From: Haloimpatiens lingqiaonensis
Lineage (GTDB): Bacteria > Bacillota > Clostridia > Clostridiales > Clostridiaceae
Direction of reading: 5' to 3'
Assembly: GCF_901447495.1 (NCBI RefSeq)
Contig: NZ_CABDWS010000010.1
Location: 1 to 53,093 of the forward strand
Length of the DNA stretch: 53,093 bases
Every line of letters starts with the position of its first letter. Within the stretch, counting starts at the first letter, position 1. Positions 606 through 49,865 of this stretch are shown here, one piece after another. A program made the position numbers and the translations under genes. The notes below the pieces were generated by a model, which had not been told where the DNA came from, ran no database searches, and worked only from the letters and a program-made list of their open reading frames with translations.

Positions 606-823
606 AATATCACCCATTATCTTATAGTTTTCTTAACTTACATTATAATGGATTTTTTATGTACATGGGAGATACTTTTTGTATCTCCTTTTAAATTTTC
701 TAAGCAGTAATTACTACTATCTTTGCCTACTAAAATTATACTCTAAGCACAAAGAATTAAGAATTAATAGTTAAAGTGAATTTTTCTTCATTGCATTACG
801 AAAAATTTTTAAAATTTAAAAAA

Positions 824-858
824 GATAACATAATTTCACGTTGTGAAATTATGTTATC
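824..858 (-). terminator. Rho-independent terminator, probably for rnr
   Basis: A perfect 16-bp inverted repeat (GATAACATAATTTCAC with its complement) is followed, on the minus strand, by a run of six T. It is the first U-tract hairpin downstream of rnr, about 350 bp past the stop, with repeats in between. Confidence 0.8.
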
Positions 859-960
859 CATCCTTTTGGTCTTAACTTAAATCATTTGACGATTAGTGAT
901 TGGGAACTAGGGACTAAAAGAACGGCTACGCCTAAAAAATATTATTAGCCTTTCTTTTTT

Positions 961-1095
961 ATAAACAGAGCTCTTAGCTTCAGATGGAGTTTTTACTCCA
1001 TCTGAAGGTTAGAGATCGTTATCCAGGGACGTAGCTGCCGTTATCTCCCACTTTGTTAGAAGTGGGAGTGTTACGGCAGGTAGTCATCGGATAAA
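961..1095. repeat. 135-bp structured dispersed repeat, copy 1
   Basis: Begins ATAAACAGAG and ends GGATAAA. It has two strong hairpins: CTTCAGATGGAGT/ACTCCATCTGAAG in the left half, and CTGCCG with CTCCCACTT against AAGTGGGAG and CGGCAG in the right half, the latter closed by TTATCC/GGATAA. Three more copies lie at 10284, 46319 and 48578, all in the same orientation. No ORF. Confidence 0.9.
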
Positions 1096-1209: not shown

Positions 1210-3420
1210 TTACTCTTCGCTTTCGAAGTCCTCTAGTGATATTATTTTATATTCATAAGATGGTATATCATCTTCTTTAGATTCTATTGGCTCCTCCGCT
1301 GGTTTTTCTTCCTTTAATAATGTAAAGTTTACTTCGTAAGCATCTAAATCTACGCTTTCTACTTTAACTTTTACTTTATTACCTAATCTATAGGTATTTT
1401 TAGTTTTTTCACCTATTAAACAAAGGTGTTTTTCGTCATAAATATAGTAATCGTCATCTAAGGTGCTTATGTGTACAAGTCCTTCTACGGTATTTGGAAG
1501 CTCTACAAACATTCCAAAGTTTGTTACTGAAGAAATTATTCCGCTATATTCTTCTCCAATTCTTTCGCTCATGTATTCAGCTTTCTTTAAGTCATCTACT
1601 TCTCTTTCTGCTTCATCTGCAACTCTTTCTCTTTCTGAAGATTGAATAGATGCATAATCCACTGCCTTTTCTAAACTAGCAAATTTCTTTTGATCTAATC
1701 TTCCATTTATAAATTCCTTTATAATTCTATGAATTATAAGGTCTGGATATCTTCTTATTGGAGATGTAAAGTGACAGTAGTATTTAGCTGCCAAGCCAAA
1801 GTGACCTATGCACTCTGGTGAATACCTAGCTTGTTTTAAGGAACGAAGTAAAAGTGTGTTTATGACAACTTCTTCATCTTTACCCTTTACCTGCTCTATT
1901 ACCCCTTGAAGTATTTTAGGATGTATTTCATTAGCCCATCTTATAGCTACCCCTAAGTTATGAGCAAATTCACTAAAGTGCGCTAATTTTTCTTCATCTG
2001 GATCCTCGTGAACTCTATATACAAAAGGAGTGTTAGCCCAGAACATGTGCTCAGCTACTGTTTCATTACAAACTAGCATAAACTCTTCTATCATTCTATT
2101 AGCTATGGCTCTTTCATATGGTTTAATGTCTATAGGTTTACCCTGTGGATTTAGTATTATTTTGCATTCTTCAAAGTCAAAATCTATAGCGCCTCTTTTT
2201 AATCTCTTATTGTAAAGTATATTACAAAGCTCTTCCATTGCCTTAAAGTCTTCTATTAAATAATCATACTTTTGTATAAGTTCTTGATCATTATCCCTTA
2301 ATATTTTAGTTACATCAGTATAAGTCATTCTTTCATCTGTTCTGATTATACTTTCTACTATTTCGTACTTTACAACTTTACCCTCTTTGTTTATCTCCAT
2401 TAAACAGCTTAAGGTTAATCTATCTTCCTTTGGATTTAAACTACATATGCCATTGGATAACTTTTTAGGAAGCATTGGAATTACTCTGTCTATTAAGTAA
2501 ACAGATGTAGCTCTTTTTAAGGCTTCCTTATCTAAAGGACAATTTTCCTTTACATAATGAGAAACATCTGCTATATGTACGCCTAAATAGTAATTTCCAT
2601 TTTCAAGTTTTTTTATAGAAACTGCATCATCTAGGTCTTTAGCATCTTCTCCGTCTATAGTAACCATTCTTACATCTCTTAAATCTTTTCTTCTTTTATA
2701 TTCTTCCTGTGGTATTTCCATTTCTATGGCATCTGTATAATTTTCAACTTTTGGTGGGAACTCTTCTGGCAAGCCATATTTCTTTATTATGGACAATATG
2801 TCGATGCCTTTTTCACCTTTTTTACCTAGTATCTCTAATATTCTTCCTTCTGGGTTTCTTCTAGGCTCTGGCCATTGAGTAATTTCTACAATTACTATAT
2901 CATCCTTTTGGGCACCATTCTTTTCCCCCTTAGGAATAAATATATCCTGTGCTATTCTCTTATCGTGGGGAATTACAAATCCAAAATTTCTACTGTCTTC
3001 ATAAGTACCTATTACATTGGCATTAGCCCTTTCTAGTATTCTTATTATTTCTCCTTCACACTTTTTGTTAGCTATTTTCTCTCTTGTAACCTTTACCATT
3101 ACTCTATCGCCATTCATAGCTCCATTCATATTGGATGAAGATACAAAAATATCTGGCCCCTCTTCATCAGTTATGACAAATCCATATCCTCTAGCATGAC
3201 ATTGAAGTTTCCCAGGCAATAATCCCATTTTATCTGGAAGTCCATAGTGCTCTGTTCTAGTTTTTACTATTTGCCCATCCTTCTCCATACTCTTTAATGT
3301 GTTTTTAAAGGCCTTCATTTCCTTTTTTCCTATACCAAATATTTTAGCTAATTCAGTTATATCCATCGGTTTATATGCCTTTTCCTTCATAAAAGAAAGA
3401 ATAACTTCTCTTATATTCAT
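1210..3420 (-). CDS. rnr: Ribonuclease R (3'-5' exoribonuclease)
   Basis: Processive 3'-5' exoribonuclease of the RNB family, able to degrade structured RNA and involved in rRNA, mRNA and tmRNA quality control. The 736 aa match the family length. Order: N-terminal winged helix (about 1-70), cold-shock OB folds (about 70-220, CHARGYGFVI), RNB catalytic domain from about residue 250 with the metal-binding Asp cluster DGEDAKDLDDAV, then an S1 domain near 625-705 (YSGIISSVTNFGMFVEL) and an acidic tail. The ATG at 3420 is used because it gives the full winged helix, although no strong ribosome binding site precedes it. In many clostridia rnr follows secG directly; here hppA and the opposing opp operon lie between. 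Confidence 0.96.
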   Translation of the reverse strand: MNIREVILSFMKEKAYKPMDITELAKIFGIGKKEMKAFKNTLKSMEKDGQIVKTRTEHYGLPDKMGLLPGKLQCHARGYGFVITDEEGPDIFVSSSNMNGAMNGDRVMVKVTREKIANKKCEGEIIRILERANANVIGTYEDSRNFGFVIPHDKRIAQDIFIPKGEKNGAQKDDIVIVEITQWPEPRRNPEGRILEILGKKGEKGIDILSIIKKYGLPEEFPPKVENYTDAIEMEIPQEEYKRRKDLRDVRMVTIDGEDAKDLDDAVSIKKLENGNYYLGVHIADVSHYVKENCPLDKEALKRATSVYLIDRVIPMLPKKLSNGICSLNPKEDRLTLSCLMEINKEGKVVKYEIVESIIRTDERMTYTDVTKILRDNDQELIQKYDYLIEDFKAMEELCNILYNKRLKRGAIDFDFEECKIILNPQGKPIDIKPYERAIANRMIEEFMLVCNETVAEHMFWANTPFVYRVHEDPDEEKLAHFSEFAHNLGVAIRWANEIHPKILQGVIEQVKGKDEEVVINTLLLRSLKQARYSPECIGHFGLAAKYYCHFTSPIRRYPDLIIHRIIKEFINGRLDQKKFASLEKAVDYASIQSSERERVADEAEREVDDLKKAEYMSERIGEEYSGIISSVTNFGMFVELPNTVEGLVHISTLDDDYYIYDEKHLCLIGEKTKNTYRLGNKVKVKVESVDLDAYEVNFTLLKEEKPAEEPIESKEDDIPSYEYKIISLEDFESEE

Positions 3421-5522: not shown

Positions 5523-5800
5523 CACCCCAAGGGTGCAAAGCTATCGTATATCAATACCAATATGCAGCCAATGCTGTTATATGGTGTATACAATCTAAAG
5601 CATTTAAGCGGTGCATCAATGGTAATATAAGGGCAATTGAAATATAAAAATTCATATTAGAATTATAGAATTATGGGAGTATGGGGTGTAGACTTTAGTT
5701 TGCACCCCTATAATTTCCATATGGTATTCAAATAATAATGTAATTAAATCCAAATTTGCTAATATTTGCACCCATGGGGTGCATGAAGGGTTGGTGAACT
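5523..5800 (+). promoter_or_regulatory. oppA-oppB spacer with GGGTGC/GCACCC hairpins
   Basis: A 278-bp spacer inside the opp gene set. CACCCCAAGGGTGC follows the oppA stop, GGGGTGTAG...TGCACCCC lies near 5679-5706, and the palindrome GCACCCATGGGGTGC (5768-5782) sits just upstream of the oppB ribosome binding site. The repeated GGGTGC/GCACCC motifs could be an attenuator, mRNA-processing hairpins that lower permease expression, or operators. No known riboswitch class recognised. Confidence 0.5.
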
Positions 5801-6754
5801 ATGAAAAAATACGTATTTAAAAGAATTTTGCAAGCTATACCTATGTTGTTTGTTATATCTATAATTTCTTTTGCACTTATGAACTTAGCACCGGGGAATC
5901 CAGCTCATGCTTTTATAACCCCTAAAATGAGCGCTGCACAAGTTACTAGGATTAAAGAAAGTCTAGGTTTAAATGATCCCATACCTATAAGATATGTAAA
6001 GTGGCTAAAAAATTCTATGCAAGGTAATTTAGGGTTTTCCTATATTACTCATGAACCTGTTATTAAAGAAATAGCTGCTCGTCTCCCTACTACCCTTGGA
6101 CTTATGGGAGTTACTATGCTAATTTCTGTAATTATCTCTATTCCCTTGGGCATGATTTCTGCTTTAAAGAAAAATAGAAAAACAGACAATATTATTACGG
6201 GTATATCCTATGTGGGTATATCTATTCCAAGCTTTTGGTTTGCCATGCTAATTGTTATACTTTTCTCTAGCAAACTAAAAATATTACCTGCATCAGGTAT
6301 GAGAAGTATAGGAGTAGATTCTACTTGGGATTTAATTAAGCATAGTATAATGCCTTGTACTGTGTTGTGTTTTCCAAATGTAGCGGTGCTTACAAGATAT
6401 ATACGTTCTAGTGCCTTAGATCAATTAAATGAAGATTATGTAATAACAGCTTTAAGTAAAGGGCTTTCCACTAGAGCAGTTTTATATAGGCATGTTTTAA
6501 AAAATTCAATTCTTCCTTTAATAACCATATTGGGAATGAGTCTTCCAGAGCTTGTTTCAGGAGCCTTTATTACAGAAACTATATTCGGATGGCCGGGTAT
6601 GGGGAGATTTGGTGTAGAAGCTATTTTTAACAGAGATTATCCTGTAATTATGGCTATAACTATGATATCTTCTTCATTGCTTATTTTAGGAAACTTAATT
6701 TCAGACATTCTTTATGGAATTGTAGATCCAAGAATTAGGGTGGTGGATAAATAA
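5801..6754 (+). CDS. Oligopeptide ABC transporter permease (OppB-like)
   Basis: Inner-membrane permease of the DppB/OppB family, 317 aa with about six membrane segments. It starts MKKYVFKRILQAIPMLFVIS and has the typical PGNPA segment near residue 31, the coupling loop YVITALSKGLSTRAVLYRHVLKN that contacts the ATPase, and the C-terminal ETIFGWPGMGRFGVEAI. GGTGAA lies 3-8 bp before the ATG. Its stop overlaps the next start by one base (TAATG), so the two permeases are translationally coupled. Confidence 0.93.
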   Translation: MKKYVFKRILQAIPMLFVISIISFALMNLAPGNPAHAFITPKMSAAQVTRIKESLGLNDPIPIRYVKWLKNSMQGNLGFSYITHEPVIKEIAARLPTTLGLMGVTMLISVIISIPLGMISALKKNRKTDNIITGISYVGISIPSFWFAMLIVILFSSKLKILPASGMRSIGVDSTWDLIKHSIMPCTVLCFPNVAVLTRYIRSSALDQLNEDYVITALSKGLSTRAVLYRHVLKNSILPLITILGMSLPELVSGAFITETIFGWPGMGRFGVEAIFNRDYPVIMAITMISSSLLILGNLISDILYGIVDPRIRVVDK

Positions 6755-7608
6755 TGAGTAGCAGACTTTTTATAAATTTAAAAATACATTTTAAAAAAAA
6801 TAAACTAGCCTTAATTTCACTAATAATATTAGGAATAATTATTTTATGTTCCTTATTGGCTTTTTTATCTCCTTATGATCCAAACAAAATAAATGTTTCA
6901 AATAAATTAGCCAGCCCAAGTCTGCAACACCTATTTGGAACCGATGAACTGGGAAGAGATTATTTTACAAGAGCTCTTTATGGTGGAAGAATATCACTTA
7001 AGGTAGGTTTTCTATCCATGTTGGTATCAATTTCCCTTGGAACTATAATAGGCGTTGTAAGTGGTTATTTAGGAGGTATAGTAGATAGCCTGCTTATGAG
7101 ACTTATAGATATACTTATGTGCATACCTACTTTCTTTCTTATATTAATAGCTAATGCGTATTTGGAACCAAATATAAATAATATAATCATTATAATCGGT
7201 CTATTTGGTTGGATGGGCGTTGCTAGAGTAGTACGTTCTGAAACTCTTTCTTATAAACAAAGGGAATATGTTTTATGTTCTAAATCCCTAGGTGCTGGTA
7301 ATTTCCATATAATTTTGAAACACATTATACCAGATGTTATTTCTTCTATTATTGTTATGTCTACATTAAATATAGCCGGGGCAATACTTACTGAGTCCTC
7401 TTTAAGTTTCTTAGGCCTTGGGGTTCAGCAGCCTATGGCTTCTTGGGGGAGTATGCTTCAAAATGCACAAGGCTATATAACAGACAAGCCGCATATGGCT
7501 ATATTTCCTGGAATGTTTATTTTACTTACAGTCCTTAGCTTCAACCTATTAGGAGAAACCCTTAGAATTGCCCTAGATCCCCACATGGATACACCTCAAG
7601 GTTCATAG
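6754..7608 (+). CDS. Oligopeptide ABC transporter permease (OppC-like)
   Basis: Partner permease of the DppC/OppC family, 284 aa, about six membrane segments. Visible marks are HLFGTDELGRDYFTRALYGGR after the first helix, the coupling loop YVLCSKSLGAGNFHIILKHI and the terminal LRIALDPHMD. It ends the set: no oppD or oppF ATP-binding gene follows, the next gene being convergent hppA. The ATPases must come from another locus or be shared with another peptide transporter. Confidence 0.93.
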   Translation: MSSRLFINLKIHFKKNKLALISLIILGIIILCSLLAFLSPYDPNKINVSNKLASPSLQHLFGTDELGRDYFTRALYGGRISLKVGFLSMLVSISLGTIIGVVSGYLGGIVDSLLMRLIDILMCIPTFFLILIANAYLEPNINNIIIIIGLFGWMGVARVVRSETLSYKQREYVLCSKSLGAGNFHIILKHIIPDVISSIIVMSTLNIAGAILTESSLSFLGLGVQQPMASWGSMLQNAQGYITDKPHMAIFPGMFILLTVLSFNLLGETLRIALDPHMDTPQGS

Positions 7609-7632: not shown

Positions 7633-7665
7633 GTGGATTATACCATATCATGGTCAATAATCCAC
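7633..7665 (+). terminator. Hairpin downstream of oppC
   Basis: GTGGATTAT and ATAATCCAC enclose an inner ACCAT/ATGGT stem. It is followed on the plus strand by CTTATGTTTTG, a weak U tract. It probably ends the opp transcript. Confidence 0.6.
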
Positions 7666-7705
7666 CTTATGTTTTGTGCATAAAAGTAAAATTTTATCCC
7701 CTAAG

Positions 7706-7740
7706 GTAAAAAAATAAAGCGCACTGTAAAGTGCGCTTTT
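7706..7740 (-). terminator. Rho-independent terminator of hppA
   Basis: AAAGCGCAC/GTGCGCTTT stem with a 6-base loop, followed on the minus strand by TTTATTTTTTT, just after the hppA stop. Confidence 0.85.
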
Positions 7741-7746
7741 AATATC

Positions 7747-9777
7747 TTATTTGAAAAGATTTAATAATACTCCACCAAATTTAACTATTACTGGTGCAAA
7801 TACTAGTGAAACTATTGTCATAAGTTTTATTAATATGTTCATAGCTGGGCCTGATGTATCTTTGAATGGGTCTCCTACAGTGTCACCAACAACTGCTGCT
7901 TTGTGAGCGTCGCTGCCTTTTCCACCGTGAGCTCCACCTTCGATATATTTCTTAGCATTATCCCATGCACCACCAGAGTTAGCCATGAATATAGCCATAA
8001 GAACTCCTGTTGCAACAGCTCCACCTATTAGTCCACCTAGAGCTTCTGCTCCTAGTAATAAACCTATTAATAGAGGAACTACTATAGCAAGTATTCCTGG
8101 TAATAACATTTCTTTTAATGCTGCACCTGTTGAAATGTCAACGCATTTCTTATAGTCGGGCTTGCCTTTTCCTTCCATGATTCCTGGAATTGTTTTAAAT
8201 TGTCTTCTAACTTCTTCTATCATTTCATTAGCTGCTTTACCAACTGATTCCATTGTTAAAGCGCCAAATAGGAATGGAAGCATTGCTCCTACTAATAATC
8301 CTGTAAGTGTTACTGGATTTAATAAGTCTATTCCTTTTAATCCAACTGCTTGAGCATAAGATGCAAATAATCCAAGAGCTGTAAGAGCTGCTGAACCTAT
8401 TGCAAATCCTTTACCTATAGCTGCAGTTGTGTTACCAACTGAGTCTAGTTTGTCAGTTATTTCTCTTACTTCGTGAGGAAGTCCTGACATTTCAGCTATA
8501 CCACCAGCATTATCTGCTATTGGGCCATATGCATCAACTGCAACAGTTATACCTGTAGTTGAAAGCATACCTACAGCTGCTAGTGCTATACCATATAATC
8601 CATGTGGTACTTCAGTTGCTCCACCCATTACGAAGAATGAAACTAAAACTCCTATACCAATAAGTATTATTGGTAATACAGTAGAGTACATTCCTACTGC
8701 TAATCCAGATATTATTGTTGTAGCTGCACCTGTTTCTGATTGCATACCAATTTTCTTAACAGATTTATATTCATCAGAAGTATACATTTCTGTTATTTTA
8801 CCTATTAACATACCAACAACTAATCCTGCTGTTATAGCAGCAAAAGCTTTTAAGTTACCAAATACATAGTTACTTAATACAAAAGCCACTATTATAACTA
8901 AAACACCACTTATAGTTGTTCCTGTATTTAAAGCCTTTTGTGGGTTTGAAGATTTACTCTTTCTAGCTATTAAAATACCAATGATTGAAGCTACAATTCC
9001 TACTGCTGATAATAACATTGGGAATACTACAGCTCCTTTTTCAATGCTAACTGTTCCTGTAAATAAAGCACCAAGAGTTAAAGCTGATATTATAGATCCA
9101 ACATAAGATTCAAATAAGTCAGCTCCCATACCAGCAACGTCACCAACATTGTCTCCAACGTTGTCTGCTATAACTGCTGGGTTTCTTGGGTCATCTTCTG
9201 GTATTCCTGCTTCTACCTTACCAACAAGGTCTGCTCCAACGTCTGCTGCTTTAGTGTATATTCCACCACCAACACGGGCAAATAAAGCTATTGAGCTGGC
9301 ACCTAGTCCAAAACCTGTTATAAAGTTAGTGTTTCCACCGAATACTAGGTATAATACACTTAAACCTACTATTCCAAGACCAACAACTGACATTCCCATA
9401 ACAGCTCCACCTGAGAATGCAATTTCAAGAGCCTTTGATTGTCCATTTCTAGCTGCATTTGCAGTTCTTACGTTTGCTTTAGTAGCAACAACCATTCCGA
9501 AGTAACCTGCTAATATTGAGAATATAGCTCCTACTACGAAACATATTGCTGTTTCCCATGCTAATAAGAAACCAATAAGTAAAAATACTATTACTATAAA
9601 TATTGATAATGCCTTATACTCTCTTCCTAAGAAAGCCATAGCACCCTCATGTATGTAGCCTGCTATTTCTTTCATTCTGTCAGTACCAACTTCTTCTTTA
9701 GATATGGCACTTCCAAGAACAAAAGCAAATATTAATGCTAAAACACCGGCAATAGTTGCATAAATATAACTATTCAC
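7747..9777 (-). CDS. hppA: Membrane-bound ion-pumping pyrophosphatase
   Basis: Integral membrane pyrophosphatase of 676 aa with about 16 helices. It hydrolyses PPi from biosynthesis and pumps H+ or Na+ out of the cytoplasm. Diagnostic motifs: [32 protein letters not shown]-type catalytic region (substrate-binding Asp and Lys), and [26 protein letters not shown] carries Ala where K+-independent enzymes have Lys, so this is the K+-stimulated class. Whether it pumps H+ or Na+ cannot be settled by eye. It lies 24 bp downstream of secG and is probably cotranscribed. Confidence 0.95.
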
Positions 9778-10283: not shown

Positions 10284-10418
10284 ATAAACAGAACTCTTAG
10301 CTTCAGATGGAGTTTTTACTCCAACTGAAGCTAAGAGATCGTTATCCAGGGACGTAGCTGCCGTTATCTCCCACTTTGTTAGAAGTGGGAGTGTTACGCC
10401 AGGTAGTCATGGGATAAA
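10284..10418. repeat. 135-bp structured dispersed repeat, copy 2
   Basis: Same orientation and boundaries as copy 1 (ATAAACAG...GGATAAA). Its left hairpin is perfect in the outer stem (CTCTTAGCTTCAG/CTGAAGCTAAGAG), where the other copies carry mismatches. The right hairpin has CGCCAG instead of CGGCAG. Confidence 0.9.
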
Positions 10419-11732: not shown

Positions 11733-12123
11733 CTAATTATCCCTCCGATTTTTTTAATTAATAATTAATGCTGAATAATTAATATTGAATAAATCAACTT
11801 TCATATATAAATTTTAATTTCTAAATTGAATAAATAAATGCTTTTAATTTAAAATTTAGAATGAAAGTTAAAATACTAATACATTATTAATTACCGCAAT
11901 ATTAATTATTATTATTATATATAATTTTTTAAATTACATAATATTTACTTAGTTATTATTTACCTAGTTTTTATTTATTATTAATACTTAATTTATAGGA
12001 TTTCTTTCCAGAACCCACTAAATTAGCAGATTTTTTAGCTCGCTAAAAAAATCCCCCTTATCTAGCACCCTAGCACACTAGCCCACTAGCACACTAAATA
12101 CGGCCCACTAGCACACTAGCACA
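11733..12123. repeat. gpmI-eno spacer: AT-rich, ends in CTAG array
   Basis: AT-rich stretch with repeated TTAATTATT and a dispersed 25-mer-like string (CAACTTTCATATATAAATTT, near 11799). From 12058 to the gpmI stop there is a dense array of CTAGCACA/CTAGCCCA units with TACGGCCCA interruptions. No gene seen. Confidence 0.7.
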
Positions 12124-13656
12124 CTAAATAATCGCTTCCCCTGTCATTTCCTCAGGTTTTTGAATTCCCATTTCCTTAAGTATAGTTGGAGCTATGTCTG
12201 CTAATTTTCCACCATCTTTTAAAGTTTTGCCAGCGGAATTATTAGACACATATAAAAATGGTACAGGACCTGTGGTATGAGCTGTCATAGGCTTTCCTGT
12301 GGAATAATCTATCATTTGCTCTGAATTTCCATGGTCTGCAGTTATAAATACAGTTCCGTCTTTTTCTAAAACCTTGTTTACAACTTTGCCAATACATTCA
12401 TCCACTGTTTCTATAGCCTTTTTAGCAGCTTCAAATACACCTGTATGTCCAACCATATCTGGATTTGCATAATTTAATATAATAAGATCATATTTATCTT
12501 CATCTAATCTTTTTAATAATTCTTCTGTAACTTCATAAGCACTCATTTCTGGTTTCAAATCATAAGTTGCAACCTTTGGAGAAGGTATCAATGCTCTATC
12601 TTCACCTTCATTTGGTGCTTCCACTCCTCCATTAAAGAAGAAAGTTACATGGGCATATTTTTCTGTTTCAGCAATTCTTAGTTGCTTTTTACCCAAACTA
12701 CTTATATATTCTCCAAGAGTATTCTCTAAGGTTTGTGGTTTATAAGCTATTTTTACATTTTCTATAGTTTTATCATATTGTGTCATGCATACAAAATGCA
12801 AATCTAAATTTTCTCTTTTGAAACCTTCAAACACCTTGTCATTTAAGGCTCTAGTTAATTCTCTAGCTCTATCTGGTCTAAAGTTAAAGAATATAATTGA
12901 ATCTCCATTTTTAATAGTAGCTGTAGGCTTTCCATCTTCTAATACTATTGTAGGAAGAACAAATTCATCAGTTTTATTGTCATTATAGGATTTTTCTATA
13001 CCTTCTAATGCACTATTAACTTCTTCACCTTTACCTAAAACCAAAGCATTGTATGCAAGTTCTACTCTTTCCCATCTATTATCTCTATCCATAGCATAAT
13101 ATCTTCCAGCTATAGTAGCTAACTTTCCAATACCTATTTTACCACAGTATTCTTCTATATCTCTTATGTATTTTTTCGCTGAAGCTGGTGGTACATCACG
13201 GCCATCTAAAAATCCGTGAATATATACCTTCTTTAATCCTTTATTCTTGGCAAGATCCAATAATCCTTTTAAATGTTCTATATGTGAATGAACTCCTCCA
13301 TCAGATAATAACCCCATTAGGTGTAATGCGGAGTCCTTTTCTTTTGCATTATCTATTGCCCATAAAAAAGCTTCATTTTGCTCAAATTTTCCTTCTTGCT
13401 TTTCCTTTGTTATTCTAGTTAATTCTTGATAAACTATTCTACCTGCTCCTATATTTAAGTGTCCAACTTCTGAGTTACCCATTTGTCCTTCTGGAAGTCC
13501 AACGCTTAAACCACTGGCATTTAGCTGAGTGTGAGGATAGTTATTGTATAGCGTATCATAATTTGGCTTATGCGCAGCTTTTACTGCATTACCATCTTCT
13601 TTATCTGAAATTCCGTATCCATCTAATATCATCAGCATAACTGGCTTCTTTTCCAT
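12124..13656 (-). CDS. gpmI: 2,3-bisphosphoglycerate-independent phosphoglycerate mutase
   Basis: Mn-dependent interconversion of 3- and 2-phosphoglycerate, 510 aa, alkaline phosphatase superfamily. Metal-site and catalytic motifs: MLMILDGYG (Asp), GQMGNSEVGHLNIGAGR with the phosphorylated Ser, HGFLDGRDVPP, NYANPDMVGHTG and TADHGNSEQM. AAAGGGGTG precedes the ATG. It lies 242 bp downstream of tpiA, that gap being filled by a composite repeat. The TAG stop sits at the edge of a CTAG array. Confidence 0.98.
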   Translation of the reverse strand: MEKKPVMLMILDGYGISDKEDGNAVKAAHKPNYDTLYNNYPHTQLNASGLSVGLPEGQMGNSEVGHLNIGAGRIVYQELTRITKEKQEGKFEQNEAFLWAIDNAKEKDSALHLMGLLSDGGVHSHIEHLKGLLDLAKNKGLKKVYIHGFLDGRDVPPASAKKYIRDIEEYCGKIGIGKLATIAGRYYAMDRDNRWERVELAYNALVLGKGEEVNSALEGIEKSYNDNKTDEFVLPTIVLEDGKPTATIKNGDSIIFFNFRPDRARELTRALNDKVFEGFKRENLDLHFVCMTQYDKTIENVKIAYKPQTLENTLGEYISSLGKKQLRIAETEKYAHVTFFFNGGVEAPNEGEDRALIPSPKVATYDLKPEMSAYEVTEELLKRLDEDKYDLIILNYANPDMVGHTGVFEAAKKAIETVDECIGKVVNKVLEKDGTVFITADHGNSEQMIDYSTGKPMTAHTTGPVPFLYVSNNSAGKTLKDGGKLADIAPTILKEMGIQKPEEMTGEAII

Positions 13657-29169: not shown

Positions 29170-30477
29170 TTAGTCTTCAAAAACCTTTTGTCCGTCAACT
29201 TCAGTTTCAAGAGCTCTTAAAGCTTTTTTAACTAATCCTTTTCTTAATTCATATTCATCTTCCTTAGATAGAGATGGGTTTCCTAGTGGGTGTGGAATAG
29301 CAATTGTAGGTACTATTCTGTTTGCACCAACTGTTAATGATATTGGTACTACTGTACACATATGAACTACTGGAATTCCGCCTCTTTCTATTTCTTTAAC
29401 TAACGTTGCACCGCAACGAGTACAAGTTCCTCATGTAGAAGTTAGTATAACTGCATCTACACCATCAGCTTTTAATTCAGCAACGATTTCTTCACCGAAT
29501 TTCTTAGTTGATGCAACAGCAGTTCCGTTACCAACTGTTGAGTAGAAGTATCTATGAAGAGAACCGATTTCTCCGTTTTTCTCCATTTCTCTTAATACGT
29601 CAACTGGTATAACTCTGTCTGAGTCTTCGTTAGCATAAGTTGGGTCATATCCACCGTGAGCTGTTTCATAAGTTTCAGAAGTTAAATCCATAACACCTTC
29701 AATATCGTATTTTCCATAGTGAGATGCACTTGAAGATTCGATATGGTCTGGATTTCCCTTTGGAACTGTACCACCAGATGTAACAATAGCAATCTTAGCT
29801 TTTGTTATATCTTTTACAGCTGGGTTTGGATCTACTCTATCGAAGTTTGGCATTGGGAATTCTGTTACGAATTCTTCAGCTTTAATCTTCTTAACAAGCA
29901 TATCTACAGCTCTTTTTGCTCCTCTTTCTTCATGGAAGAAGTTCTTTCTTATTCCTCTTGGAATATATCCTTCTTCTGCTGGAGTTCCTACTGCTTCACC
30001 TTTAGCTAATTTAACAGCTAATTTAGCAATTGCTGGTAAAGCCTGTCTCATACCTACTGCACTATTTCTAGTTTCAACGATGTATACGTCTTTTTTGTAC
30101 ATATCAGCACCTGGGTTTTCAATGTACATTGCAGTTAATACTGGTATGTTTAATTTTTCTTTAACTTCTTTAGCTATAGTTCCACAAGCAACACCGTATC
30201 TACCAGCGTTAAATGCAGGACCTGCTATGAATAGATCTGGGTTGTATTTTTTCACCATTTCTATTACTTCTTCTTTTGCTTCATCTATATTTTCATTGAA
30301 ATAAGAGTCACCACATATTACTGTTGCAACTATTTCAATTCCTTCTTTTTTAAGTAATCCATTAAGACCCATTCCTGGTCCCACGAATCCTTCTCTTACT
30401 TCTGGTTTATAATCAGCTTTTTCTTCTCCACCAATTCCAGCATAGAATTGATTTATATAGTGAACTACTTTAATCAC
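29170..30477 (-). CDS. grdB: Glycine reductase component B selenoprotein (in-frame UGA = Sec349)
   Basis: Selenoprotein subunit of the substrate-specific component B, 435 aa. It takes glycine bound as Schiff base to GrdE pyruvate and forms the adduct passed to GrdA. The reading frame is interrupted only by TGA at 29431-29433, codon 349, giving VILTSTUGTCTRCGATL. Sec followed by two CxxC-type Cys is the family signature, so this is recoding, not a frameshift or nonsense mutation. N-terminus VVHYINQFYAGIGGEEKAD is diagnostic. ATG at 30477 follows GAAAGGGGGAG. Automated calls often split it into two ORFs. Confidence 0.96.
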
Positions 30478-34444: not shown

Positions 34445-34600
34445 CCAATAACCTGAGAGTTTTGCTCCTTCGGTGCCATAAGGCTTTCCAGAGTTATGTC
34501 AGTTTTAGGTCCTTTTTGCCTGAGAGATTCATATTGCTTCGGCTCACAATACTTACTCCTTCGGCTACTTGCTAACGCAGCAAGTTATCTCCCATAAACA
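34439..34600 (-). ncRNA. Tandem glycine riboswitch controlling the grd operon
   Basis: Two aptamers read on the minus strand. Aptamer 1: GGGAGATAAC, GCCGAAGGAGTAAG, then AATCTCTCAGGCAAAAAGGAC. Aptamer 2: ACTCTGGAAAGC, GCACCGAAGGAGCAAAA, CTCTCAGGTTATTGGACAGAG. These are the conserved elements of the gcvT/glycine class. The architecture predicts an ON switch: glycine stabilises P1 of aptamer 2, which blocks the terminator and lets grdX and the rest be transcribed. Confidence 0.95.
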
Positions 34601-34637
34601 TCATCCATAATAAATATTTTATTTTCTATTTGATTTC

Positions 34638-46211: not shown

Positions 46212-46534
46212 AATATCTACCTCCAAATACTCTATTCTTAATTTTAAATATTAATATATCTATTATAATATATTTATGAGAAAAATCCAGCTATTATGTG
46301 ATATAGATATGTCTTAACATAAACAGAGCTGTTAGCTTCAGATGGAGTTTTTACTCCAACTGAAGGTTAGAGATTGTTATCCAGGGACGTAGCTGCCGTT
46401 ATCTCCCACTTTGTTAGAAGTGGGAGTGTTACGGCAGGTACGTCTCTGGATAAAATTTAAAATATTCTCGCTACAATTCAACTTAACAACTCTTACTTCC
46501 TACCTTACTTCTTACTCTTACTCTTACTTACAAA
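46212..46534. other. Spacer holding copy 3 of the structured repeat
   Basis: Mostly the 136-bp repeat at 46319-46454, plus TTACTTCTTACTCTTACTC strings next to the kinase stop. No gene. Confidence 0.75.
46319..46454. repeat. 135-bp structured dispersed repeat, copy 3 (variant right end)
   Basis: Same frame as the other copies, but the right end reads GGTACGTCTCTGGATAA instead of GGTAGTCATCGGATAA. This variant pairs fully with TTATCCAGGGACGTA, so the whole right half folds into one long near-perfect hairpin. Confidence 0.9.
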
Positions 46535-48577: not shown

Positions 48578-48712
48578 ATAAACAGAACTCTTAGCTTCAG
48601 ATGGAGTTTTAACTCCAACTGAAGGTTAGAGATCGTTATCCAGAGACGTAGCTGCCGTTATCTCCCACTTTGTTAGAAGTGGGAGTGTTACGGCAGGTAG
48701 TCATCGGATAAA
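48578..48712. repeat. 135-bp structured dispersed repeat, copy 4
   Basis: Same orientation as copies 1-3. Differences include TTTTAACTCC in the left loop and CCAGAGACG in the right stem. It is the only copy lying upstream rather than downstream of a minus-strand gene. Confidence 0.9.
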
Positions 48713-48884: not shown

Positions 48885-48949
48885 ATAATTCATTTTATTT
48901 ATATGCTAGATTTTTTTAAAGAAGATAAGCATTAAATTACACTGTAGTG

Positions 48950-49200
48950 GAATTATAAAATTTCTCCTCCATGACTTACATAAAAGCTCGGAACAATAAA
49001 TTTGATTTAAGAAATTCTAATCTTTTAGCCATATAAAATTATCTAACGCTCACATTCAGCGTCCTGCCTCAGGTTCGCTAGCCTGGCGTCCTTGCCAGGC
49101 TTACGATAATTTTATCTGTCTAAAAGAAGAATTTCTAAAATTAAATTTAAATAGTTCCTTTGCTTTTTATGCAAGTCATTCCGGAGAAATTTCATAATTC
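48950..49200. repeat. 251-bp imperfect palindrome (MITE-like)
   Basis: The ends GGAATTATAAAATTTCTCC and GGAGAAATTTCATAATTC are complementary, and pairing continues inward through ATGACTTACATAAAAGC / GCTTTTTATGCAAGTCAT, AAGAAATTCT / AGAATTTCT and ATAAAATTATC / GATAATTTTAT. The GC-rich apex has its own GCCTGGC/GCCAGGC and CGCT/AGCG hairpins. No ORF. Confidence 0.88.
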
Positions 49201-49232
49201 AAGTAATTTAACGCCCTTGTAGTACAATCATG

Positions 49233-49865
49233 TTATAGATTATCTTTATAAAACTCACAATAAAAACTTATGGCACAATTTTCACATTGCGGTTTCCTGG
49301 CTTTACATACCTTTCTGCCATGCCATATTATATAGTGATGTGCATCACTCCACATTTCTCTAGGTATATTTTTCATAAGTTCTTTTTCCACTTGATCCAC
49401 ATTCTTACCTTTTCCAATACCAATTCTATTGGACACTCTAAACACATGAGTATCCACAGCTATAGCCGGTATGCCAAAGGCATTGCTTAAAACCACATTG
49501 GCAGTTTTCCTTCCAACTCCTGCAAGACTTATAAGTTCCTCCATGGTGTTAGGTACCTGTCCACTAAATTTCTCTATTATATCCTTTGTGGCTCCTAATA
49601 TATTTTTACTCTTATTCTTATAAAGTCCACAGGATTTTATCTTTTCTCCCAGTTCTTCTTCAGTTAATGTTATGATCCTTTCCGGAGTTCCATATTCCTT
49701 AAATAATTTAGCCGTCACCTTATTAACTCTCTCATCTGTACATTGAGCAGATAATATAGTAGAAATAAGAAGCTGATACGGAGATTTAAAATTCAATGCA
49801 CATTTTGCTCCCGCATATGTTTTACTTAATATATCTAAAACCTTAGAAATACTTTCCCTATCCAT
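49233..49865 (-). CDS. nth: Endonuclease III
   Basis: 210 aa bifunctional DNA glycosylase/AP lyase for oxidised pyrimidines. HhH-GPD fold: STILSAQCTDERVNKVT, hairpin LAGVGRKTANVVLSNAFG with catalytic Lys, VDTHVFRVSNRIG with catalytic Asp, and a [4Fe-4S] loop with Cys spacing C-X6-C-X2-C-X5-C (CKARKPQCENCAISFYC). ATG at 49865 has GAGGTG 6 bp upstream; the in-frame TTG at 49883 precedes it. It follows plsC by 33 bp. Confidence 0.97.
   Translation of the reverse strand: MDRESISKVLDILSKTYAGAKCALNFKSPYQLLISTILSAQCTDERVNKVTAKLFKEYGTPERIITLTEEELGEKIKSCGLYKNKSKNILGATKDIIEKFSGQVPNTMEELISLAGVGRKTANVVLSNAFGIPAIAVDTHVFRVSNRIGIGKGKNVDQVEKELMKNIPREMWSDAHHYIIWHGRKVCKARKPQCENCAISFYCEFYKDNL

Follow-up and report, generated by a model that had tools for sequence, protein, structure and literature searches.

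The window analysed here is the whole stretch of 53,093 nucleotides from Haloimpatiens lingqiaonensis (NCBI RefSeq assembly GCF_901447495.1, contig NZ_CABDWS010000010.1). It belongs to a genome of 184 contigs and 3.29 Mb, referred to below as the host genome (G000). Four copies of a two-hairpin element lie in the window. We searched it with R1, a covariance model of 135 positions and 45 pairs that was derived from 37 distinct copies (alignment A2, which includes copies 1–3 of the window and not copy 4). The four copies were recovered, all on the minus strand, at 137–160 bits with E values of 2e-27 to 2e-32. The other matches at E <0.01 were opposite-strand echoes of the same four copies, and the best match elsewhere in the window (817–924) had an E value of 0.02. 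The positions, sharp ends and two-hairpin fold that an earlier note had described from the letters alone were confirmed. On the minus strand, the copies read TTTATCC...CTCTGTTTAT or close variants. The copies, and the parts of copy 1, are as follows.

961–1095, minus strand: element copy 1, including both TTTAT pentamers (135 bp; R1 159.9 bits, sequence and ORF evidence).
1091–1095, minus strand: left TTTAT of copy 1, taken as the target side (TTTAT in 54 of 56 end-to-end host copies).
1019–1094, minus strand: unit 1 (hairpin 1) of copy 1, a long imperfect hairpin closed by TTATCC/GGATAA (fold, covarying helices 1 and 2, module spacing).
968–1017, minus strand: unit 2 (hairpin 2) of copy 1, followed by a tail ending in TGTTTAT (fold, covarying helix 3, similarity to unit 1).
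961–965, minus strand: right TTTAT of copy 1, taken as the element side (TTTAT in 56 of 56 end-to-end host copies).
10284–10418, minus strand: element copy 2 (R1 150.8 bits; without a counterpart in the orthologous intervals of the congeners G001 and G002).
46319–46454, minus strand: element copy 3 (R1 136.6 bits; without a counterpart in the orthologous interval of G001).
48578–48712, minus strand: element copy 4 (R1 155.3 bits; the G001 junction has ATAAA and no element).

Copy 1 sits 114 bp downstream of the rnr stop codon and copy 2, whose hairpin 2 is of a perfectly matched form, 12 bp downstream of that of eno. Copy 3, with the left arm variant TCCAGAGACGTACC, lies between the PAS kinase gene and lemA, and copy 4 lies just upstream of the Shine-Dalgarno-like sequence of a 104-aa ORF. 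Pfam supported the earlier naming of rnr, enolase and the PAS histidine kinase as neighbours, and gave no match for the small ORF beside copy 4. The length of 135 bp given earlier is right when both pentamers are counted, but the repeating unit is 130 bp because stacked copies share one TTTAT. Likewise, the single orientation of the copies applies within the window but not genome-wide, where 80 pattern matches were forward and 77 reverse.

Other repeats and structured RNAs occur in the same window. A SECIS element and a glycine riboswitch lie at 29393–29430 and 34497–34604, respectively, and other short interspersed repeats, with many weaker matches in G000 and G001, occupy 11756–12130 upstream of eno. 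An Rfam TwoAYGGAY match (48996–49150) lies inside a roughly 280-bp near-palindromic repeat (48930–49243), which has at least 10 host copies and, in G001, at least 40, these being lower bounds because 40 candidates per genome were scored. Two other host copies of this repeat also match TwoAYGGAY, and the TwoAYGGAY "cis-regulatory RNA" may be a repeat element here.

The host genome contained 157 matches to a 31-base internal pattern of the element at ≤3 mismatches, and the reversed control gave 0. Single genomes carried 157–202 such pattern matches. In the two congeners, blast gave 25 matches in G001, of which 18 were close to full length, and none in G002. A blast survey of the same taxonomic family with one query sequence found a match in 68 of 146 genomes and 24 of 46 genera, several of the matches being weak. 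R1 matched 30 of 391 genomes in a sample of the class at E≤0.001, 14 in the same family and 16 in eight other families; the best carrier outside the family was G167 (E 6e-26), and several other class matches were weak. Among 80 enolase loci scanned, one weak partial match was found, on a contig of Clostridium sartagoforme. No match to the element was found in the plasmids and phages searched. One IMG/VR contig matched a 19-base core word, which we regard as coincidental since the remainder of the element was absent there. These results indicate that several clostridia carry dozens to hundreds of dispersed copies of the family and that the window copies are a small part of it. Rfam searches at gathering and permissive thresholds gave nothing credible for the element in the window and 23 other loci, and no earlier description was found in the literature, chiefly open-access. 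The family is apparently unnamed.

Copy 1 gave a computed fold of −63.1 kcal/mol, compared with −24.8 kcal/mol for shuffled sequences (z −10.8), and its complement folded at −71.4 kcal/mol (z −10.9). In the 37 distinct rows of the alignment, 94.6% of the cells were paired, and 15 of the 45 pairs had changed on both sides. The covariation score was 0.193, compared with 0.098 for shuffled and at most 0.054 for slid versions, where the structure was taken mainly from the fold of copy 1 itself and so favours the real over the slid versions. The covariance-model check outlined in the earlier note turned up compensatory changes, with a score well over the shuffles. Because the covariation exceeds both the shuffled and the slid controls, we conclude that the palindromes are maintained.

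We then compared the two strands. The opposite strand was on average the more stable in G000, G001, G067 and other genera, and the strands were equal in G135. Flanked single mismatches in the five sets comprised 44 G-T, 35 A-C and 260 others. The diverse alignment held 94 G-T cells against 29 A-C cells, 34 of the G-T cells belonging to one fixed pair; G-T is also tolerated in DNA hairpins. Neither the stability nor the mismatch counts picked out the RNA of one strand. The stem differences between copies noted earlier are real: in 57 host copies, hairpin 2 was imperfect in 37, of one or the other of two perfectly matched forms in 8 and 3, and of other combinations in 9. Such a pattern is as compatible with correction of the palindromes in DNA as with selection on RNA. 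The earlier suggestion that RNA structure matters is not supported over a role of DNA structure despite the strong compensatory changes, since the complement folds equally well or better and the mismatches favour no strand.

The ends of the element were examined in two sets of copies. Among 56 non-redundant end-to-end host copies, a selection that itself favours intact ends, TTTAT was present at the left end in 54 and at the right end in all 56, and no motif was seen in their flanks beyond it. The second set, drawn from G000, G001, G135, G067 and other genera, held 139 copies chosen by inner motifs. The left pentamer deviated from TTTAT in 11 of 139 (TTTGT 7, GTTAT 2, TTTCT 1, TTAAT 1) and the right pentamer in 3 of 131, after 8 rows in which the expression stopped at the internal tail or a chance word had been dropped; the contrast between the sides was borderline (p = 0.053). 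The two pentamers differed from each other in 14 of 131 copies, 11 of them through a change on the left side. A more variable left pentamer is expected if the left one is the target and the right one belongs to the element. No terminal inverted repeats beyond the pentamer were seen by eye.

Six head-to-tail stacks sharing one TTTAT, with a period of 127–130 bp, were found in the host (C67, C91, C1 with three copies, C14, C54 and C120) among the matches listed, about 100 of the 157. An empty site was found in the host itself, where a region containing a RAYT-like gene occurs twice (94.7% identity over 846 bp) and one duplicate lacks the element. The alignment of the duplicates is interrupted by the element, and its two parts overlap by 5 bp, ATAAA, which indicates that the other duplicate is an exact empty site; the right-hand flank at this locus is itself a local repeat present several times. 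Orthologous sites were compared for copies 2–4. The intervals of both G001 and G002 had no copy 2, and those of G001 had neither copy 3 nor copy 4, although these intervals have diverged and only one junction, that of copy 4, was close to base-exact. A comM-like gene in G079 is interrupted by two element copies, each after ATAAA. Empty sites hold TTTAT once. The TTTAT ends, the head-to-tail stacks, the absence at matching sites in relatives and the exact empty site together indicate that the element, which encodes no protein, is mobile DNA. The earlier idea of a conserved 3′ UTR element is contradicted by the absence of copies 2–4 at orthologous sites and by the mixed gene contexts of the element.

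The local repeat at the duplicated locus (L123), ACATAGATTAAAGTTTAGTTTACTTTATCTATG..., was seen near the RAYT genes at about 5613–5809, 6666–6801, 7638–7791, 12389–12583 and 13010–13090, and the element at L123 sits within one copy of it. At L123 6963–7553 and 11583–12173, the RAYT gene and the start of comM are duplicated, and comM itself is single. RAYT and comM are names that we take to apply here; in Pfam, the host proteins match Y1_Tnp and Mg_chelatase/ChlI. Upstream of a comM-like gene there was often a gene for a short RAYT-like Y1 protein, and comM motifs were found beside the latter in 9 of 30 loci (L143–L172); outside the host, comM was identified by short motifs. At L163 1459–2849 (G079), RAYT and comM-like sequence are fused in a 240-aa ORF, and the comM-like part is broken by the two element copies on the opposite strand.

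The element is built of two homologous hairpin units that follow each other in the same orientation. When the hairpin foot and the unit end were used to fix the register, the arms of the two units agreed at 15 of 31 consensus positions (p = 0.006 by shuffling); the likeness had been seen before it was tested. On the TTTAT strand, CTAC lies 5′ of hairpin 1 in 31 of 37 copies and CTAA 5′ of hairpin 2 in 34 of 37. On the ATAAA strand, 35 of 37 copies have GTAG at the foot of hairpin 1, on its 5′ side, and the foot of hairpin 2 reads CTTG (19), CTTA (8), CTTT (5), CTAA (4) or GTTA (1). REP hairpins carry GT[AG]G at this position, as summarized in PMC6006769. In regards to copies from other families, the feet match at 8–10 of 12 positions in five of seven copies and at 5 of 12 in two; ten loci had been tried, three were without the motif, and a CTA-type foot was required on the unit-1 side.

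The two genomes G067 and G135 showed that the loop of hairpin 1 varies in steps. The distance from the left end to the core was 59–67, 110–118 and 161–163 nt in 17, 7 and 3 of 27 measured G067 copies and 55–63, 100–112 and 159–160 nt in 32, 14 and 2 of 48 measured G135 copies; listed left ends were used, and 22 of 49 and 14 of 62 core matches, respectively, were unmeasured. The extra segment, of about 51 nt, lies inside the hairpin 1 loop and was self-folding in the one copy folded. These results indicate that the hairpin 1 loop in G067 and G135 carries 0, 1 or 2 copies of a 51-nt module. Some copies had a second unit-2-like hairpin. A one-hairpin copy in G135 (L234, about 2885–2972, minus strand) seems to end at GATTTAT directly behind unit 1, as though this unit were able to exist by itself.

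We also investigated the orientation of the copies and their gene context. In the host, 45 of 58 copies have their sense on the strand that local GC skew marks as the presumed leading one, skew and gene strand being confounded there. In G067, 36 of 49 core copies lie with the presumed fork (46 of 72 in a wider set, a weaker bias) and 17 of 24 agreed by local GC skew; the skew of G067 changes sign between 2.4 and 2.8 Mb, and its contig start presumably encodes a DnaA-like protein. No orientation bias was observed in G135 (32 of 62 core copies, 9 of 16 by local skew), G001 (5 of 11) or other genera (12 of 24). Between codirectional genes, copies in gene sense and opposite sense numbered 26 and 8 in G000, 11 and 6 in G067, 3 and 6 in G135, and 8 and 8 in other genera. 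According to a simple ORF caller, copies lay inside genes in 0 of 58 cases in G000, in none in G001, G135 and G067, and in 1 of 24 in other genera.

A parent element was sought in Y1 and IS loci, mostly with 1.5-kb flanks. No autonomous copy with the ends of the element was found among them, and no tnpB, iscB or other gene lay between such ends. The ends were sought in 84 Y1 loci, which yielded nothing but weak words here and there and already known copies next to a gene. Pairs of a left end and a remote right end were then sought in all loci examined, and the single match bore no resemblance. Five multi-copy IS200 sets, with ends defined by alignment (all but the right end of the G103 set), were also considered, and none fits. 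The host has an IS605-type tnpA-tnpB pair without such ends nearby.

The presence of a transposase was compared with that of the element. A Y1_Tnp match was found in 59 of 68 carriers, compared with 62 of the 78 non-carriers (p = 0.28). Nine of the 68 family carriers had no Y1_Tnp match; four of the nine were weak carriers, and two were assigned by elimination, five genomes being unlisted. Strong carriers are also found here: G016 had neither a Y1_Tnp nor a RAYT-like match, and G135 had no Y1_Tnp match and one RAYT-like match (E 6e-7). A RAYT-like match of any kind was found in 43 of 68 carriers and 46 of 78 non-carriers (p = 0.61), so that 25 carriers were without a RAYT-like match, whereas REP carriers would be expected to have a RAYT gene. 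Short RAYT genes were found in 24 of 68 carriers and 15 of 78 non-carriers (p = 0.039, the genomes not being independent), and the element lay within 0.2 kb of a short RAYT in 3 of 30 loci, compared with 0 of 37 other chosen Y1 loci (p = 0.085). In one of these three (G000), a paralogous RAYT has no element beside it, so this neighbourhood may be a chance insertion. The case for RAYT as a partner is weak, and such a partner is not needed. No transposase was found whose presence tracks the repeat.

The element is probably a non-autonomous, REP/IS200-IS605-like two-hairpin transposon of single-stranded DNA with a BOX-like modular build. We infer that movement would rely on a Y1 (HUH) transposase provided in trans: after binding the single strand in its folded form, the enzyme would cleave at the TTTAT on each side of the element and insert the 130-nt strand 3′ of a TTTAT elsewhere, the outcome being copies with TTTAT on both sides and head-to-tail stacks. 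The unit 1 loop would tolerate inserted hairpin modules as passengers, as pneumococcal BOX tolerates boxB. Both cleavage sites would be TTTAT, so like guides are expected at the two hairpins, and a common CTAN motif was indeed found 5′ of both; its pairing with TTTAT by the simple IS608 guide rule was not evident. The IS200/IS605 rule, as outlined in PMC6006769, is that the tetranucleotide 5′ of each hairpin reads the left flanking target or the right final tetranucleotide. Among the three guesses of the earlier note, an IS200/IS605-like derivative is the best: the oriented TTTAT, the lack of terminal inverted repeats, the subterminal hairpins and the shared foot motif all agree with it, and it is not proven because no parent was found. 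We also consider it possible, more tentatively, that the copies form a so far undescribed, class-wide clostridial family of modular hairpin transposons, that the enzyme moving them has no previous connection with elements of this kind (whether it comes from a new Y1 clade or from another class), and that they evolve by duplication of the hairpin unit and uptake of 51-nt loop modules.

The Y1 reading has to be weighed against other routes of mobility. Movement by another class of enzyme, such as another HUH protein, a site-specific recombinase or an RNA-based route, would account for carriers without any Y1_Tnp match and for a class-wide family without a found partner; it is nevertheless rather unlikely, since the anatomy of hairpins and foot motifs resembles that of Y1 substrates and transposases can be transient or lost. 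A DDE-type MITE duplicating a fixed 5-bp target would explain why TTTAT flanks nearly all end-to-end copies and occurs once in empty sites. The inverted repeats (judged by eye) and varied target-site duplications of such MITEs were not found, the target always has one orientation, and the unequal pentamers, changed mostly on the left, speak against a duplication, although old copies may have mutated. We consider this explanation unlikely. What the element shows is insertion 3′ of a fixed short target without a terminal inverted repeat, as in the IS200/IS605 derivatives known as PATEs.

A structured RNA (3′ UTR, sRNA or regulatory) kept for its RNA would account for the strong compensatory changes, the fixed G-U pair with the excess of G-T over A-C cells, and the gene-sense bias in G000. 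This is very unlikely, as the element is missing at orthologous sites, the complement is on average the more stable in all sets but G135, 34 of the 94 G-T cells come from a single pair, flanked single mismatches number 44 G-T to 35 A-C, and the sense bias is weaker or gone in G067, G135 and other genera. We give hardly any credence to the idea that the copies are what remains of one end of an omega-RNA/IscB/TnpB or HEARO element. In its favour are a loose resemblance to a structured end and the tnpA-tnpB pair of the host, but Rfam gave no match in the window and 23 loci, no gene lies between the ends in the loci examined, mostly with 1.5-kb flanks, and the host tnpA-tnpB locus has no such ends nearby.

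The preferred reading, a REP/IS200-IS605-like transposon, concerns a very common repeat in several clostridial genomes that has no Rfam match or found literature description. The element accounts for a class of structured sequence between genes that might be taken for regulatory RNA when clostridial genomes are annotated or RNA-seq data are read, and it offers a test system for the spread of hairpin repeats without a visible transposase. The unit doubling and loop modules form a readable record of repeat growth.

The element was finally compared with known systems. It resembles REP/BIME repeats (TnpA-REP, RAYT) in its high-copy intergenic hairpins, GTAG foot, doublets and imperfect stems; stem mismatches are required for the activity of E. 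coli REP according to PMC8266576. It differs from them in the direct order of its units, its sequence conservation across families in the class and its sharp TTTAT ends, and RAYT genes hardly track it. With IS200/IS605 elements and their ends-only derivatives, as PATEs are presented in PMC7290912, it shares an oriented AT-rich target, the lack of inverted repeats, subterminal hairpins, a similar motif at both feet and one end that repeats the target pentamer. Unlike PATEs, it has no found parent, 157–202 pattern matches in single genomes, a class-wide distribution and extra modules. The GTAG-/CGTC-tagged palindromic repeats of Di Nocera et al. 2013 (PMC3733652) are likewise tagged intergenic palindromes, but they measure 20–40 bp, and the main text of that paper contains neither "Clostridi" nor "Firmicutes". 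The BOX elements of pneumococcus and S. suis (boxA-boxBn-boxC) are also mobile-type repeats with a variable number of largely self-folding modules, and the folding of boxB involves few interactions with boxA and boxC, as described in PMC3049150. The present element, compared with BOX by architecture, differs in its 51-nt module, its two homologous end units and the bacterial class in which it is found. The kind of element is known and the variant is new, the novelty being the homologous units in direct order together with the 51-nt loop modules.
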